DNA of 64,000 bases, from NCBI RefSeq assembly GCF_900101345.1, contig NZ_FMUX01000002.1, positions 186,001 through 250,000 of the forward strand. The letters run 5' to 3'. The notes under the pieces are model-generated. The model saw only the letters and a program-made list of their open reading frames with translations, was not told where the DNA came from and did no database searches. A program made the position numbers and the translations under genes. This DNA is from Desulfoluna spongiiphila. Lineage in GTDB: Bacteria > Desulfobacterota > Desulfobacteria > Desulfobacterales > Desulfolunaceae. This document shows positions 6,087 through 63,861 of this stretch, in pieces; within the stretch, counting starts at the first letter, position 1; every line of letters begins with the position of its first letter.

Positions 6087-6238
6087 GCCTCCGGCGGCGA
6101 GGTGAGCCACCTCGAAAGCTTGTTACCGCTGTGGTTTAACCCTCGTTCCTCGAGTTAAACCACAGCGGTATTCAAGGGTGAGGCGTGTCTTTCCCACCTG
6201 TTTGTCAAACCGTAACTGTTCAGCTTGCCTCCGGCGGG
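6087..6238 (-). repeat. Dispersed palindromic repeat, copy R1
   Basis: Begins GCCTCCGGCGGCGAGG, carries the hairpin CGAGGTG-AGC-CACCTCG, a second hairpin built on ACCGCTGTGGTTTAA with its complement around 6128-6170, and ends near GTAACTGTTCAGCTTGCC at 6212-6228 followed by another CTCCGGCGG. It fills most of the gap after the secreted protein gene. Confidence 0.85.
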
Positions 6239-6335
6239 GCGCTTTTTTCATGTCACACGTCACGTGAATGCCCCGGGAGAGCCTGGACAATGACGGCTTC
6301 CTTTAATGGCGTTTGAATACCCCACACGGTTGATC

Positions 6336-6437
6336 ACGGGCGTAGCCCGTCAGCAAATGCTCCGTCCCTGAGGAACGAAGGGACGGAGCATTTGCGAACC
6401 TGGGGTGCAGGGGATTTATCCCCTGCCCGCCGGAGGC
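6336..6437 (+). repeat. Dispersed palindromic repeat, copy R2 (ACGGGC subfamily)
   Basis: Starts with the hairpin ACGGGCGTAGCCCGT, then GCAAATGCTCCGTCCC paired with GGGACGGAGCATTTGC around the shared loop TGAGGAACGAA, then CAGGGGATTTATCCCCTG and the terminal CCGCCGGAGGC. The same arrangement recurs at 63758-63861 (R25). No gene lies between 6059 and 6449 besides these repeats. Confidence 0.85.
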
Positions 6438-6449
6438 ACGCTTTCTTCG

Positions 6450-8099
6450 TTAGTCGTGATCCGGAAACCAGGTCTTGTACTCTTCCCGCATTTTGTATTT
6501 CTGCACCTTGCCGCTGGCCGTCATGGGGTATTCGGTGACGATGGCCACGTGTTTGGGGATTTTAAAGCGGCTGATCTTGCCCCGGCAGAAGTCCCGAACA
6601 TCCTCGGGGAGGACATCGGCTCCCTGTTTGAGGATCACGAAGGCGGCCACCTCTTCGCCGTATTTGCGGCTGGGGATGCCCACCACCTGGACGTCCTGGA
6701 TGCCCTCCATGGTGTAGAGGAACTCTTCGATCTCCCGGGGGTAGATGTTCTCCCCGCCCCGGATGATCATGTCCTTGTGGCGTCCGGTGATGGTGATGTA
6801 GCCGTCTTCGTCCATGGTCGCCAGGTCCCCGGAGTGGAGCCAGCCGTCGTTGTCGATGGCTTTTTCCGTGGCCTCGGGCATGTTGTAGTAGCCCTTCATC
6901 ACGTTGTATCCCCTGCAGCAAAGCTCGCCCTGGGTTCCCGGGGGGACCTCGTCTCCGGTCTCCGGGTCGATGAGCTTGACTTCGATCTCCGGCATGGCTT
7001 TTCCCACGGTCTCCACCCTTTTTTCAATGCTGTCTTCGATGCGGGTCTGGGTGATGACCGGCGAGGCTTCGGTGAGGCCGTAGCAGATGGTGATTTCGCT
7101 CATGTACATCTTTCGGATCACCTGTTTCATCACGTTGATGGGGCAGGAGGAGCCGGCCATGATGCCCGTGCGCAGGGAGGAGAAGTCGAACTTGGCAAAG
7201 AGCTTGTGGTCCAAAATGGCAATGAACATGGTGGGCACGCCGTAAAGGGCCGTGCAGCGTTCCTCTTCCACGGAGGCCATGACCTGCACCGGATCGAAGC
7301 TCTCTAAGACCACGAGGGTGGACGCGTGGGAGACGGCGGCAAGGACCCCTAAGACGCAGCCGAAGCAGTGAAAGAGGGGCACGGGCAGGCAGAGGCGGTC
7401 TTCATGGGAAAAATTTTGGTTTTCGCCGATCCAGAAGCCGTTGTTGCCGATGCTGTGGTGGGTGAGCATCACGCCCTTGGGAAACCCGGTGGTCCCGGAG
7501 GTGTACTGCATGTTCACCACGTCGTGGCAGGAGAGGGTGGCCTGGCGCTCCCGGTACGCCTCGTCGGAGACCATGTGGGCCATGGCCTCGATCTCGGGGA
7601 TGGAGTACATGCCCCGGTGTTTTTCATGGCCCAGGAAAAACACCCGCTTGAGGTGGGGGAATTTGTCGGCTTTCAGGTAGCCCCGCTGGCAGGTTTTCAG
7701 CTCGGGGATGAGGTCGCAGGCGATGTTGATGTAGTCGGCGTCCTGATACCCGTTGATGACCAGAAGGTTTTCCGATTCCGACTGCTGCAGGAGGTACTCC
7801 AGCTCGGCGGTGCGGTAGTTGGTGTTGACGGTGAGGAGGATGGCCCCGATTTTGGCTGTGGCGAACTGAAGAGCCACCCAGTAGGGGATGTTGGTGGCCC
7901 AGACCGCCACCTTTTCTCCTTTTTTGACCCCCAGGGCCATGAGGCCTTTGGCCACCCGGTCCACGGTCTCGCCGAACTCGCGATAGGTGAGCCGAAAATC
8001 CCGGTCCACGTAGATGATGGCCTCGTTGTCCGGGTGCTCGGCAACGGCTTTGTCGAGGATCTGACCCAGGGTCAGGTCCCGAAGATTGGTGCTGGTCAT
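6450..8099 (-). CDS. Fatty acyl-CoA synthetase (AMP-binding family)
   Basis: A 549-residue adenylate-forming enzyme that activates a carboxylic acid with ATP and CoA. Visible motifs: the P-loop-like YTSGTTGFPKGVMLTH, the YGLTEASPV motif, the hinge/A8 region HSGDLATMDEDGYITITGR with RGGENIYPREIEE, and the catalytic lysine region SGKVQKYKMRE near the C-terminus. Length and motifs match medium/long-chain acyl-CoA ligases (FadK/ACSF2-like). It lies 150 bp downstream of a cupin-type regulator on the same strand, so both are probably one transcription unit and the regulator may sense a related acid or CoA ester. GGAG stands upstream of the ATG. Exact chain-length specificity cannot be read from sequence. 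Confidence 0.9.
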   Translation of the reverse strand: MTSTNLRDLTLGQILDKAVAEHPDNEAIIYVDRDFRLTYREFGETVDRVAKGLMALGVKKGEKVAVWATNIPYWVALQFATAKIGAILLTVNTNYRTAELEYLLQQSESENLLVINGYQDADYINIACDLIPELKTCQRGYLKADKFPHLKRVFFLGHEKHRGMYSIPEIEAMAHMVSDEAYRERQATLSCHDVVNMQYTSGTTGFPKGVMLTHHSIGNNGFWIGENQNFSHEDRLCLPVPLFHCFGCVLGVLAAVSHASTLVVLESFDPVQVMASVEEERCTALYGVPTMFIAILDHKLFAKFDFSSLRTGIMAGSSCPINVMKQVIRKMYMSEITICYGLTEASPVITQTRIEDSIEKRVETVGKAMPEIEVKLIDPETGDEVPPGTQGELCCRGYNVMKGYYNMPEATEKAIDNDGWLHSGDLATMDEDGYITITGRHKDMIIRGGENIYPREIEEFLYTMEGIQDVQVVGIPSRKYGEEVAAFVILKQGADVLPEDVRDFCRGKISRFKIPKHVAIVTEYPMTASGKVQKYKMREEYKTWFPDHD

Positions 8100-8249
8100 G
8101 GTCTGCTGCTCCGTATTGCGGTGGCCCTGCCGAGGGCCGGGTTCGTAACCGCGAGGTCTGAAAAGGGGCCGTTTAAGGATGCGGCCCGTGACTTCGATGG
8201 CCGTCTGGCCCTTTTTTCACGCCTCGTCGTGCTGCGTCGTTTCCGGCCG

Positions 8250-8822
8250 TTAGTCCGGGATGTACAGGACCGCGTAGATGCACGCAGGGGTTTGTGAGGC
8301 ACAGCTGACGTAGTGGGGAACCACAGAGTTGTAGTAGATGCTGTCCCCGGCTTTGAGCAGGTGGGTCTCCGTGCCGTAGAGGACTTCCACCTCTCCTTCG
8401 GTGACCACGATGAACTCTTCCCCTTCATGGGTGGAGAGTTTTTTCTCCTGGGCCGATTCGGGAAGGATTTCGATGAAGAAGGGCTCCATGTGGCGGTCGG
8501 TTTTTCCCCGTCCCAGGGAGAAAAACTTCAGGGCCACGGGTTTGTCCTTGTCCGGGAGCATGTCGATCTCTTTTTTCTGTTCGCCTTTGCGCACGATGAG
8601 GGGGTCTTCGCTCACCTGATCGTCGAGGAGGGTGCCCAGGCGGACCCCCAATGCCCGTGAAATCTTAAGGAGGGGACCAAGGGAGGGGAAATACTCTTTC
8701 TCATGCCCGATCTGTCCCAGGAACTCCCGGTGAAGCCCGGTGCGCTCCACAAGGTCATCTAAGCTGATGCCCCTTTGTTTCATCAGGCCGGCGATACGGC
8801 TGCCGATCTTCTCGATTTTCAT
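8250..8822 (-). CDS. XRE-family regulator with C-terminal cupin domain
   Basis: A 190-residue protein. Residues 5-65 form a helix-turn-helix of the XRE/Cro type (GISLDDLVERTGLHREFLGQI, LLKISRALGVRLGTLL). Residues 110-188 form a cupin beta-barrel (THEGEEFIVVTEGEVEVLYG, LKAGDSIYYNSVVPHYV), expected to bind a small ligand. This domain pairing is a known one-component regulator type. It precedes the acyl-CoA ligase gene on the same strand, which suggests it controls that gene and itself. AAGGAG lies 6-7 nt before the ATG. Confidence 0.9.
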   Translation of the reverse strand: MKIEKIGSRIAGLMKQRGISLDDLVERTGLHREFLGQIGHEKEYFPSLGPLLKISRALGVRLGTLLDDQVSEDPLIVRKGEQKKEIDMLPDKDKPVALKFFSLGRGKTDRHMEPFFIEILPESAQEKKLSTHEGEEFIVVTEGEVEVLYGTETHLLKAGDSIYYNSVVPHYVSCASQTPACIYAVLYIPD

Positions 8823-63256: not shown

Positions 63257-63379
63257 GGCATATCCACGGAAACGAGGGTGTCGGGTGAGGTGATTCACTG
63301 TTCAAAATGGGGATTAAATGGCGGGAAGTCAAGGGGCATTGAGGGGTTGAGTAGCGATCAGTCAGTGGTGAAAAAACAT

Positions 63380-63565
63380 GCCTCCGGCGGCCCTGCCGGG
63401 GGCCAAACTTTTGAAAAGTTTGATAAACAGGTTTTAAATAACCAATGACGTCGTGACACCTGGCGACGACAGGTAATGCCTACAGCGAATGTGAACACCC
63501 TGAGGCTCGAGGGGGGGAGATCATTCGCAATCCATTTTCAAGGAGACACACCTTGCCGCCGGTGC
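63380..63565 (+). repeat. Dispersed palindromic repeat, copy R24 (degenerate)
   Basis: Left half well kept (GCCTCCGGCGGCCCTGCC, AAACTTTTGAAAAGTTT), right half eroded (GCGAATGTGAACACCC, CCTGAGGCTCGAGG, CACCTTGCCGCCGGTGCC). Confidence 0.82.
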
Positions 63566-63663
63566 CATTGTTTCTTTATTCTTTTCGTATCCAGGCTCTG
63601 CCTTGTTGGTGTGGTTTATGGCAGCGTAATGGGCTAAATTTATAGGTGAAGCGATTTCAATCG

Positions 63664-63708
63664 CGGAGGTTGAGCCTCCGTGCATCATTCCCAGGCCGAG
63701 CCTGGGAA
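63664..63708. repeat. REP-like double hairpin
   Basis: CGGAGG-ttgag-CCTCCG followed by TTCCCAGG-ccgag-CCTGGGAA. The second hairpin is of the widespread type found in REP-like intergenic repeats of many bacteria and is unrelated to the GCCTCCGGCGG family. Confidence 0.7.
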
Positions 63709-63757
63709 CGAAAGGTACCCTGACATAGGGGATTGCCCCTTGCGCTCGGCATTCAAC

Positions 63758-63861
63758 ACGGGCGAAGCCCGTCAGGGAATGTGATGAGCCTGAGGAACGA
63801 AGGCGAAGGAGCATTCCCGAACATGGGGTCCAGGGGATTTATTCCCTGGCCGCCGGAGGCT
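63758..63861 (+). repeat. Dispersed palindromic repeat, copy R25 (ACGGGC subfamily)
   Basis: ACGGGCGAAGCCCGT, GGGAATGTGATGAGCC with GGAGCATTCCC around TGAGGAACGAA, CCAGGGGATTTATTCCCTGG and CCGCCGGAGGC. Same design as R2. Confidence 0.85.

Follow-up and report, generated by a model that had tools for sequence, protein, structure and literature searches.

The described systems closest to the repeats studied here are insertion sequences of the IS66 family, the BOX and SPRITE repeats of Streptococcus pneumoniae, and the REPIN elements with their RAYT transposases. According to excerpts of two reports, the ends of the IS66-family element ISDge4 read GTAACTGCTCAGCA and its repeat is 8 bp long (PMC12898284), and the IS66 elements ISPpa5a and ISPpa7 are tabled with a value of 8, which we read as the repeat length (PMC3281130). 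We analysed a stretch of 64,000 nucleotides from Desulfoluna spongiiphila (C16:186001-250000 of the 6.54-Mb draft genome G000; hereafter the window), for which a preliminary description had reported about 25 copies of a repeat built as a chain of hairpins. The repeat family to which these copies belong is real, abundant and mosaic, and some of its members are miniature inverted-repeat transposable elements (MITEs). Its members carry alternative arms between GCCTCCGGCGG and CCGCCGGAGGC, and most copies with paired outer GTAACTATTCAGC ends probably moved as MITEs, with an IS66-type transposase as the likely driver in trans. What we observe directly are the outer ends, their target duplications, the AT-rich targets, sites that are empty in a congener, and a shared orthologous position at which the arms differ.

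Besides the window, the sequence worked on comprised 800 kb of G000, 465 kb of D. butyratoxydans MSL71 (G005) and smaller parts of D. limicola ASN36 (G001) and others; G002-G004 denote other congeners. Module clustering gave, by our own count, roughly 25 copies or part-copies with inner ends GCCTCCGGCGG / CCGCCGGAGGC in the window, in agreement with the number first reported, and motif sites were far more numerous than in shuffled sequence: 44 for GCCTCCGGCGG at no more than one mismatch (shuffle mean 4.2, maximum 10) and 12 for TGAGGAACGAA at the same tolerance (0.94 in shuffles). A full copy consists of a GC end, a hairpin arm, the core, a second arm and a GC end, and 34 of 85 paired GC ends delimit a length of 170-179 bp. 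The hairpins named in the preliminary description are present in the window copies, with several corrections. The CGAGGTG/CACCTCG arm is real but is one of at least five alternatives, which occur in several combinations: A (CCTGCCGGGGGC plus AAACTTTT/AAAAGTTT), B (CAAGGTG/CACCTTG), C (AGCTTTTTTTCAAAAAAGCGAC), D (CCAGGGGATCATCCCCTGG) and E (AGGTGCCCCCACCT). The GATTCAG/CTGAATC hairpin exists but is weak, with 62% of cells paired. The loop is invariant as GAGGAACGA, whereas the flanking T and A form a closing pair that alternates with C-G (T-A in 27 and C-G in 16 of 46 copies); copies of A-C type lack the GAGGAACGA core. Finally, the GC motif holds as an inner end but not always as the terminus, some copies extending further out to inverted GTAACTATTCAGC ends.

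These outer ends provide the evidence for mobility. Beyond the GC ends, part of the copies run through a spacer, sometimes T-rich and sometimes with a GCCTTCTATGGTTAAAG layer, into GTAACTATTCAGC. We found 39 inverted GTAACTATTCAGC pairs, 143-245 bp long, with terminal inverted repeats as in a MITE; each is at most 245 bp and none contains a transposase gene. Directly outside the ends, and at length 8 only, 29 of the 39 pairs are flanked by direct repeats matching at 7-8 of 8 positions (20 perfect, 9 at seven of eight), compared with 2.5% for permuted flanks. Twelve pairs came from long stretches of G000 and D. butyratoxydans (6/12 with 7-8 matches), and 27 from short stretches of D. butyratoxydans and D. 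limicola, picked for opposed ends about 200 bp apart with the flanks unseen at the time of choice (23/27). The 8-bp target duplications at the outer ends indicate that these copies moved as MITEs. The duplicated targets are AT-rich (AT 0.75 versus 0.49), with an A/T run of at least 4 in 55% versus 11%, and several of them, by eye, lie within older copies (L236, L243, L246), an insertion habit that would help make mosaics. A preference for terminator T-tracts was unsupported (5/29 sites versus 13% of random spacer positions).

Comparison with D. butyratoxydans points in the same direction, since clean insertions are seen relative to its syntenic spacers (for example contig 211464-211729, 416078-416511 and 424495-424782). 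The window copy at 25478-25716, whose flanking 8-mers agree at 6/8, has a clean empty site there. Across syntenic spacers, the end motif at no more than two mismatches was present only in G000 in 47, only in D. butyratoxydans in 16, in both in 36 and in neither in 79, so that turnover of the repeats looks high. The early suggestion of a non-autonomous mobile element is thus supported for the outer-end copies. Two separate observations concern the surroundings of copies. Three G000 copies (C16:488258-488427, C13:11096-11266 and C17:43108-43277) have a different outer inverted motif (AAATGCGTT...) in their flanks, which suggests a second kind of outer end. An inverted-repeat element CCCGGATATTTCATGAG...GAAATATCCGGG occurs at L201 218-305 (G005:C3 ~110218-110305), within the D. 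butyratoxydans spacer orthologous to window 36.3k, and pieces related to it flank the G000 copy at contig 416078.

A GTAA start is a hallmark of the IS66 family, and 8-bp duplications together with outer inverted ends point to a DDE-type engine. The copies share both the GTAA start and the 8-bp duplication, and from the likeness of the ends and the duplication length we consider it likely that an IS66-type transposase would mobilise the outer-end copies in trans, leaving the duplications behind. The outer ends agree at 11/14 bases with those of ISDge4, as its end sequence is given in an excerpt of the report (PMC12898284). The end GTAACTATTCAGCTC was present in 12 of 291 genomes of the class, and short elements outside the genus have the same outer ends around unrelated interiors, with an 8-bp duplication in L273 and L276 and without one in L299. 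Two intact IS66 genes of G135 have related ends GTAAATATTCGG, and G140 has an IS66 remnant (PF03050, E 1.8e-7) some 100 bases away from GAGCTGAATAGTTAC. Another IS66-like frame, next to an outer end in G267 (L277), had no Pfam match. Within the genus, PF03050 detected one weak fragment in D. limicola and two genes in G004, which stand between perfect 8-bp duplications; G004's own IS66 was rejected as the engine, its ends being GTAAGCGTTCACG. A search for an autonomous partner, as opposed outer ends no more than 4 kb apart enclosing a gene-sized stretch, returned only one span in the 800 kb of G000 and 465 kb of D. butyratoxydans. This 2.1-kb D. butyratoxydans span was rejected as an autonomous element, because its gene, which to judge from the frame looks like that of a solute-binding protein, lies between two separate copies.

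The arms can differ between species at a single site. At window 29.3k, G000 and D. butyratoxydans have the left flank in common as far as the GC end (0.94 over 30 bases), and the flank of D. limicola resembles it only loosely. In the spacer, G000 has an A...B copy, D. limicola a B...A copy and D. butyratoxydans the collapsed palindrome GCCTCCGGTGGAGGC. At window 11.8k, a common left flank (0.87) is followed by arm A in G000 and arm B in D. butyratoxydans, and at contig 505k an identical right flank (30/30) follows a D-like arm in the former and arm B in the latter. At contig 503.9k the two genomes agree in the right flank (0.89) and in right arm A, and the left arm is B in one genome and E in the other. 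These four cases were picked from 46 spacers scanned and do not represent a rate; the systematic scan used a permissive end pattern with palindrome self-matches mixed in, and only cases re-read by eye are given. Arms may have been exchanged through recombination or template switching, either from copy to copy or from one inverted end of a copy to its other, or they may have been replaced through deletion and a new insertion.

The family extends well beyond the window, its end motif being found genome-wide and in congeners. Exact copies of the 12-base end GCCTCCGGCGGC number 1252 in G000, 1558 in D. limicola, 775 in G003, 669 in D. butyratoxydans, 612 in G004 and 41 in G002. Outside Desulfoluna, two other genera of the family have 95 and 66 exact copies, and counts of 0-42 were obtained for another 50 genomes of the order, the genome with 42 having 24 reversed-control matches. 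Of 58 genomes, 7 have the core CTGAGGAACGAAGG: G000 with 295 copies, five congeners with 1-124 each, and one genome outside the genus with a single copy. In a sample of 218 genomes from the phylum, TGGCCGCCGGAGGCA occurred in 13: G000 had 67 copies, G511 25, G344 16 and the other ten 1-4. G344 and G511 represent one other family of the phylum. Paired copies in G344 follow the same plan of GC ends, arm hairpins and long near-perfect central hairpins, and what was read in G511 were single GC ends with an arm.

Several results weigh against movement of the family by an IS66-type transposase. Ten of the 39 outer-end pairs lack a good duplication. In the 800 kb of G000, 55 of 66 paired GC-end copies of 100-300 bp are without a complete outer pair, and the flanks of those 55 show no direct repeats beyond chance. 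Nor are copies without outer ends plainly older relics, since the share of species-specific spacers is similar with outer ends (10/16) and without them (26/43); the idea that they are simply older was therefore unsupported. PF03050 had no matches in G000 or in D. butyratoxydans, though the latter has many copies with perfect duplications, and for this reason we only infer the IS66-type engine. The IS66 genes of G135 show no visible 8-bp duplication at the ends we assigned to them. Moreover, no outer end at no more than two mismatches was present in 127,551 bases of G344 and G511, compared with 51 in the 800 kb of G000, which suggests that the GC-ended unit is older than, and predates, its packaging in IS66-type ends. 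A possible though somewhat doubtful alternative takes this further: the GC-ended multi-hairpin unit would be an independent class of repeat, of greater age and wider distribution than the IS66-type ends borrowed in Desulfoluna. Its arms would be exchanged or inverted at fixed chromosomal sites by way of the inverted GC ends and would be continually rewritten by arm-to-arm copying, with DNA templating preserving the pairing while the sequence drifts.

The preliminary description suggested that base pairing, rather than sequence, is conserved, and here DNA-level and RNA-level explanations meet. Among 46 distinct A-core-B copies passing our own filter in the retrieved Desulfoluna loci, 90.3% of cells are paired. 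Changes on both sides occur in 18 of 52 pairs versus 12.7 in shuffles, which leave relatedness among copies in place (1/500 as high), and in 108 cells versus 45.8 in shuffles (0/500) and 12-24 in slid alignments. Counts of further pair types are unexceptional, as 94/500 shuffles reach the observed value. The copies therefore exceed the controls in compensatory changes on most measures, but not in the number of pair types. Both strands of one full copy also fold far better than shuffles (z -6.4 and -6.9), with a closing stem of GC ends and A/T extensions. Such changes and such strong folds could come from a selected RNA, whether attenuator, small RNA or riboswitch, conserved for its fold. We regard this as most improbable, because the two strands are about equally stable (-85.2 and -84.0 kcal/mol), orientation bias is absent, no Rfam match was found in the window at gathering thresholds, and the best hairpins of 20 longer A/C copies contain 460 Watson-Crick, 9 G-T and 5 mismatched pairs while the arms vary between copies, a pattern that resembles arm copying in DNA more than selection on RNA (for two of the 20 the hairpin counted is other than the central one, namely a GAGGAACGA core and a 10-bp A arm). 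Perfect stems of at least 14 were found in 21 of 147 copies, and their arms fall into 10 groups without any common 9-mer. Near-perfect arms of differing sequence could thus result from arm-to-arm copying in DNA no less than from RNA selection; the covariation excess supports conserved pairing, and the arms leave room for copying. Under movement as IS66-type MITEs, one arm, by serving as DNA template for the other, may help to keep the pair matched. The conserved loop might instead mark REP/REPIN-type elements moved by a RAYT (Y1, HUH) transposase recognising the GAGGAACGA hairpin loop. Y1 transposase genes are indeed present (11 matches in G000, 55 in six genomes overall), and the same CTGAGGAACGAAGGG hairpin tip recurs in repeat-like hairpins of Planctomycetes and Bacteroidota contigs among the matches listed. 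However, the GAGGAACGA loop was found in 0/30 Y1 loci, up to ~1.5 kb on each side, and the exact GC end in just 4/30; none of these Y1 genes is flanked by the repeats, and we rejected a RAYT partner for the loci examined. Together with the coreless A-C copies and the DDE-type signature of the outer ends, this makes RAYT-driven movement quite improbable.

The repeats lie mostly downstream of genes, near stop codons, and the option of a bidirectional terminator deserves closer weighing. It would have the repeats kept at gene 3' ends, where a cross-element GC stem and a T-tract release RNA polymerase. With genes called on 800 kb by our own hexamer-based script rather than a standard gene finder (631 genes), the GC-end motif was commonest in convergent spacers (39/81), less common in tandem (67/310) and rarest in divergent ones (10/82), corresponding to 2.3, 1.19 and 0.31 end motifs per kb of spacer. 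The median stop-to-motif distance was 34.5 nt at 126 gene 3' ends with an end motif within 120 nt. A T run of at least 5 lies within 25 nt outward of 43% of 185 ends, compared with 9% background, and in the RNA folds of both strands of one copy (the z values above) the GC stem closes with an A/U extension. Canonical terminators were also scarcer at these 126 gene ends: 11% after the last end and 4% between stop and first end, versus 30% over the first 150 nt in 246 control genes. This last difference fades when space is matched, to 4% versus 6% in equal-length controls between stop and element, and to 40% versus 37% when the element itself is counted. T-tracts of at least 5 T follow arm type (B 62-69%, D 55%, E 50%; rarer at A, 8-23%, and C, 0-10%) and are independent of whether transcripts leave by that end (35% versus 37%), so that their selection by transcription direction was unsupported; tandem copies have no orientation bias (B first 13, A first 10). 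The absence of orientation bias and the lack of a link between T-tract and transcription direction argue against selection for terminating. In an excerpted account, pneumococcal BOX, RUP and insertion sequences are also over-represented between convergent genes, which its authors read as tolerance (PMC3049150). We consequently think that maintenance as terminators is unlikely; what stands of the option is the position near stops and the T-tracts at part of the GC ends. Read towards the T-tract, a GC stem with such a tract would make a terminator, and under the IS66-type MITE reading T-tract-ended copies may end transcription as a by-product, their placement downstream of genes probably reflecting tolerance rather than a selected job.

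The repeats reported here form a highly abundant, mosaic, MITE-like family, some members of which bear outer ends of IS66 type. Covarying positions in DNA repeats are commonly taken as a sign of selection on RNA. This family provides a test bed for the co-evolution of hairpin arms; its near-perfect yet differing arms, together with sites shared between species at which the arms differ, allow arm-to-arm copying and arm swapping to be tested as alternatives.

Copies of the repeat family in the window, with their modules and target duplications.
Feature	Position	Strand	Basis
Copy, arm B at left end and core loop, continuous with next copy	6087..6226	-	sequence, modules
Composite copy, core hairpin GCAAATGCTCCGTCCC/GGGACGGAGCATTTGC, D-like right arm	6227..6437	+	
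Part-copy: core remnant, arm B, GC end, T-tract; orthologous D. butyratoxydans spacer without it	10266..10343	+	
Copy A-B, adjoins next copy	11725..11871	+	
Full copy: GC end, arm A, GATTCAG hairpin, core hairpin with GAGGAACGA loop, arm B, GC end, T-tract	11887..12056	+	
Part-copy, arm B and core	13755..13819	-	
Core hairpin GAATGCCCTCACCC/GGGTGAGGGCATTC, arm D (CCAGGGGATCATTCCCTGG), GC end	22790..22878	+	
Part-copy, diverged core and GC end	24630..24710	+	
Copy with outer GTAACTATTCAGC ends, inner TTCTATG.TTAAA layer, D and A arms	25478..25716	-	
Full copy A-B	29263..29432	+	compared with orthologous spacers
Left target duplication AAAAACAG of copy 32211-32424	32203..32210	.	
Copy with outer ends GTAGCTATTCAGC/GCTGAATAGTAAC	32211..32424	-	
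Right target duplication AAAAATAG of copy 32211-32424, 7/8 match	32425..32432	.	
Part-copy, arm A and GC end	34100..34160	+	
Full copy A-B	36251..36422	+	
Full copy A-B, A arm longer	38639..38824	+	
Shortened copy: arm B, degenerate A end, outer-end remnant	39892..40025	-	
Full copy B-A	43524..43692	-	
Full copy A-B, then T-tract and TTAACCATAGAAGGC layer	49112..49281	+	
Arm E (CAAGGTGGGGGCACTTTG) with GC end, TTCTRTGGTTAAA layer	50405..50440	-	
Copy A-C	53938..54107	+	
Core and arm B, adjoins copy 53938..54107	54123..54243	+	
Full copy A-B	56490..56658	+	
Part-copy, core remnant and arm B	57590..57667	+	
Full copy B-A	58815..58988	-	
Diverged copy A-B	63380..63564	+	
Core hairpin, D-like arm, GC end	63752..63860	+	

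Two further hairpins accompany these copies. A recurrent hairpin CACGGGCG(T/A)AGCCCGTCAG adjoins the core in D-armed copies, at window 6335-6353 and 63757-63775 and in congeners too. A separate REP-type hairpin TTCCCAGGC..GCCTGGGAACGAAAGG lies at window 63688-63715, within the composite 63380-63860, and its GCCTGGGAACG half has an exact match only twice in the 800 kb of G000.

Farther afield, similar GGCCGCCGGAGGCA repeats presumably occur in Desulfovibrio and gut Clostridia; the GGCCGCCGGAGGCA pattern was absent from the four genomes tested, of three Clostridia-titled records and one Oscillospiraceae record. Searches of plasmids, phages and E. coli gave short matches only (E 0.1 to 1). On Pseudomonas viridiflava plasmid pDR208 (L347 301-345), CCAGGGGTCACCCCTGG-CCGCCGGAGGC-GATTTT lies just beyond a gene end and resembles arm D. 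An 18-base arm-and-end pattern occurs in nine viral contigs, two of which (one sequence) place it by eye in a D-like hairpin context, the rest being without one. Among the matches listed (L109-L198), the tip CTGAGGAACGAAGGG is found in hairpins of many contigs of Planctomycetes (GGTGGCACGCCCTGAGGAACGAAGGGCGTG) and Bacteroidota (GTCACCCTGAGGAACGAAGGGTCTC). No earlier description of the repeat family surfaced among the top-ranked matches of our literature searches; papers containing the CCGCCGGAGGC string, or any of three motif strings among the matches listed, concerned unrelated subjects, judged by title.

Among known systems, the IS66 ISBst12 group (ISDge4) and MITEs derived from it share the GTAACT..TCAGC outer ends and the 8-bp target duplication, as far as excerpts describe them (PMC12898284, PMC3281130). 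The repeats reported here differ in having no transposase gene and an interior of hairpin modules, and none of the IS66 genes retrieved is bounded by exactly these outer ends, the nearest being GTAAATATTCGG. The hairpin repeats of G344 and G511 share the GCCTCCGGCGGC / GCCGCCGGAGGC ends, arm hairpins and long near-perfect central hairpins, but have other arm sequences and no GTAACTATTCAGC-like end in the stretches covered. REPIN/RAYT systems resemble the family in the short conserved loop of their high-copy hairpins, whereas here 8-bp duplications are found and no Y1 gene is linked to the repeats in the loci examined. SPRITE of S. pneumoniae, which resembles a Rho-independent terminator, is likewise a repeat with a terminator-like stem and a T-rich tract, described in an excerpt (PMC3049150) as one 18-bp stem with a U-rich tract; the family studied here has many hairpins within a long-range stem and a T-tract at some ends only. 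BOX (boxA-boxB-boxC), compared by description from the same excerpt (PMC3049150), is also modular, hairpin-rich and enriched between convergent genes, but in Desulfoluna the inner ends are GC-rich, and different arms can occupy a given position and vary from species to species at a single site.

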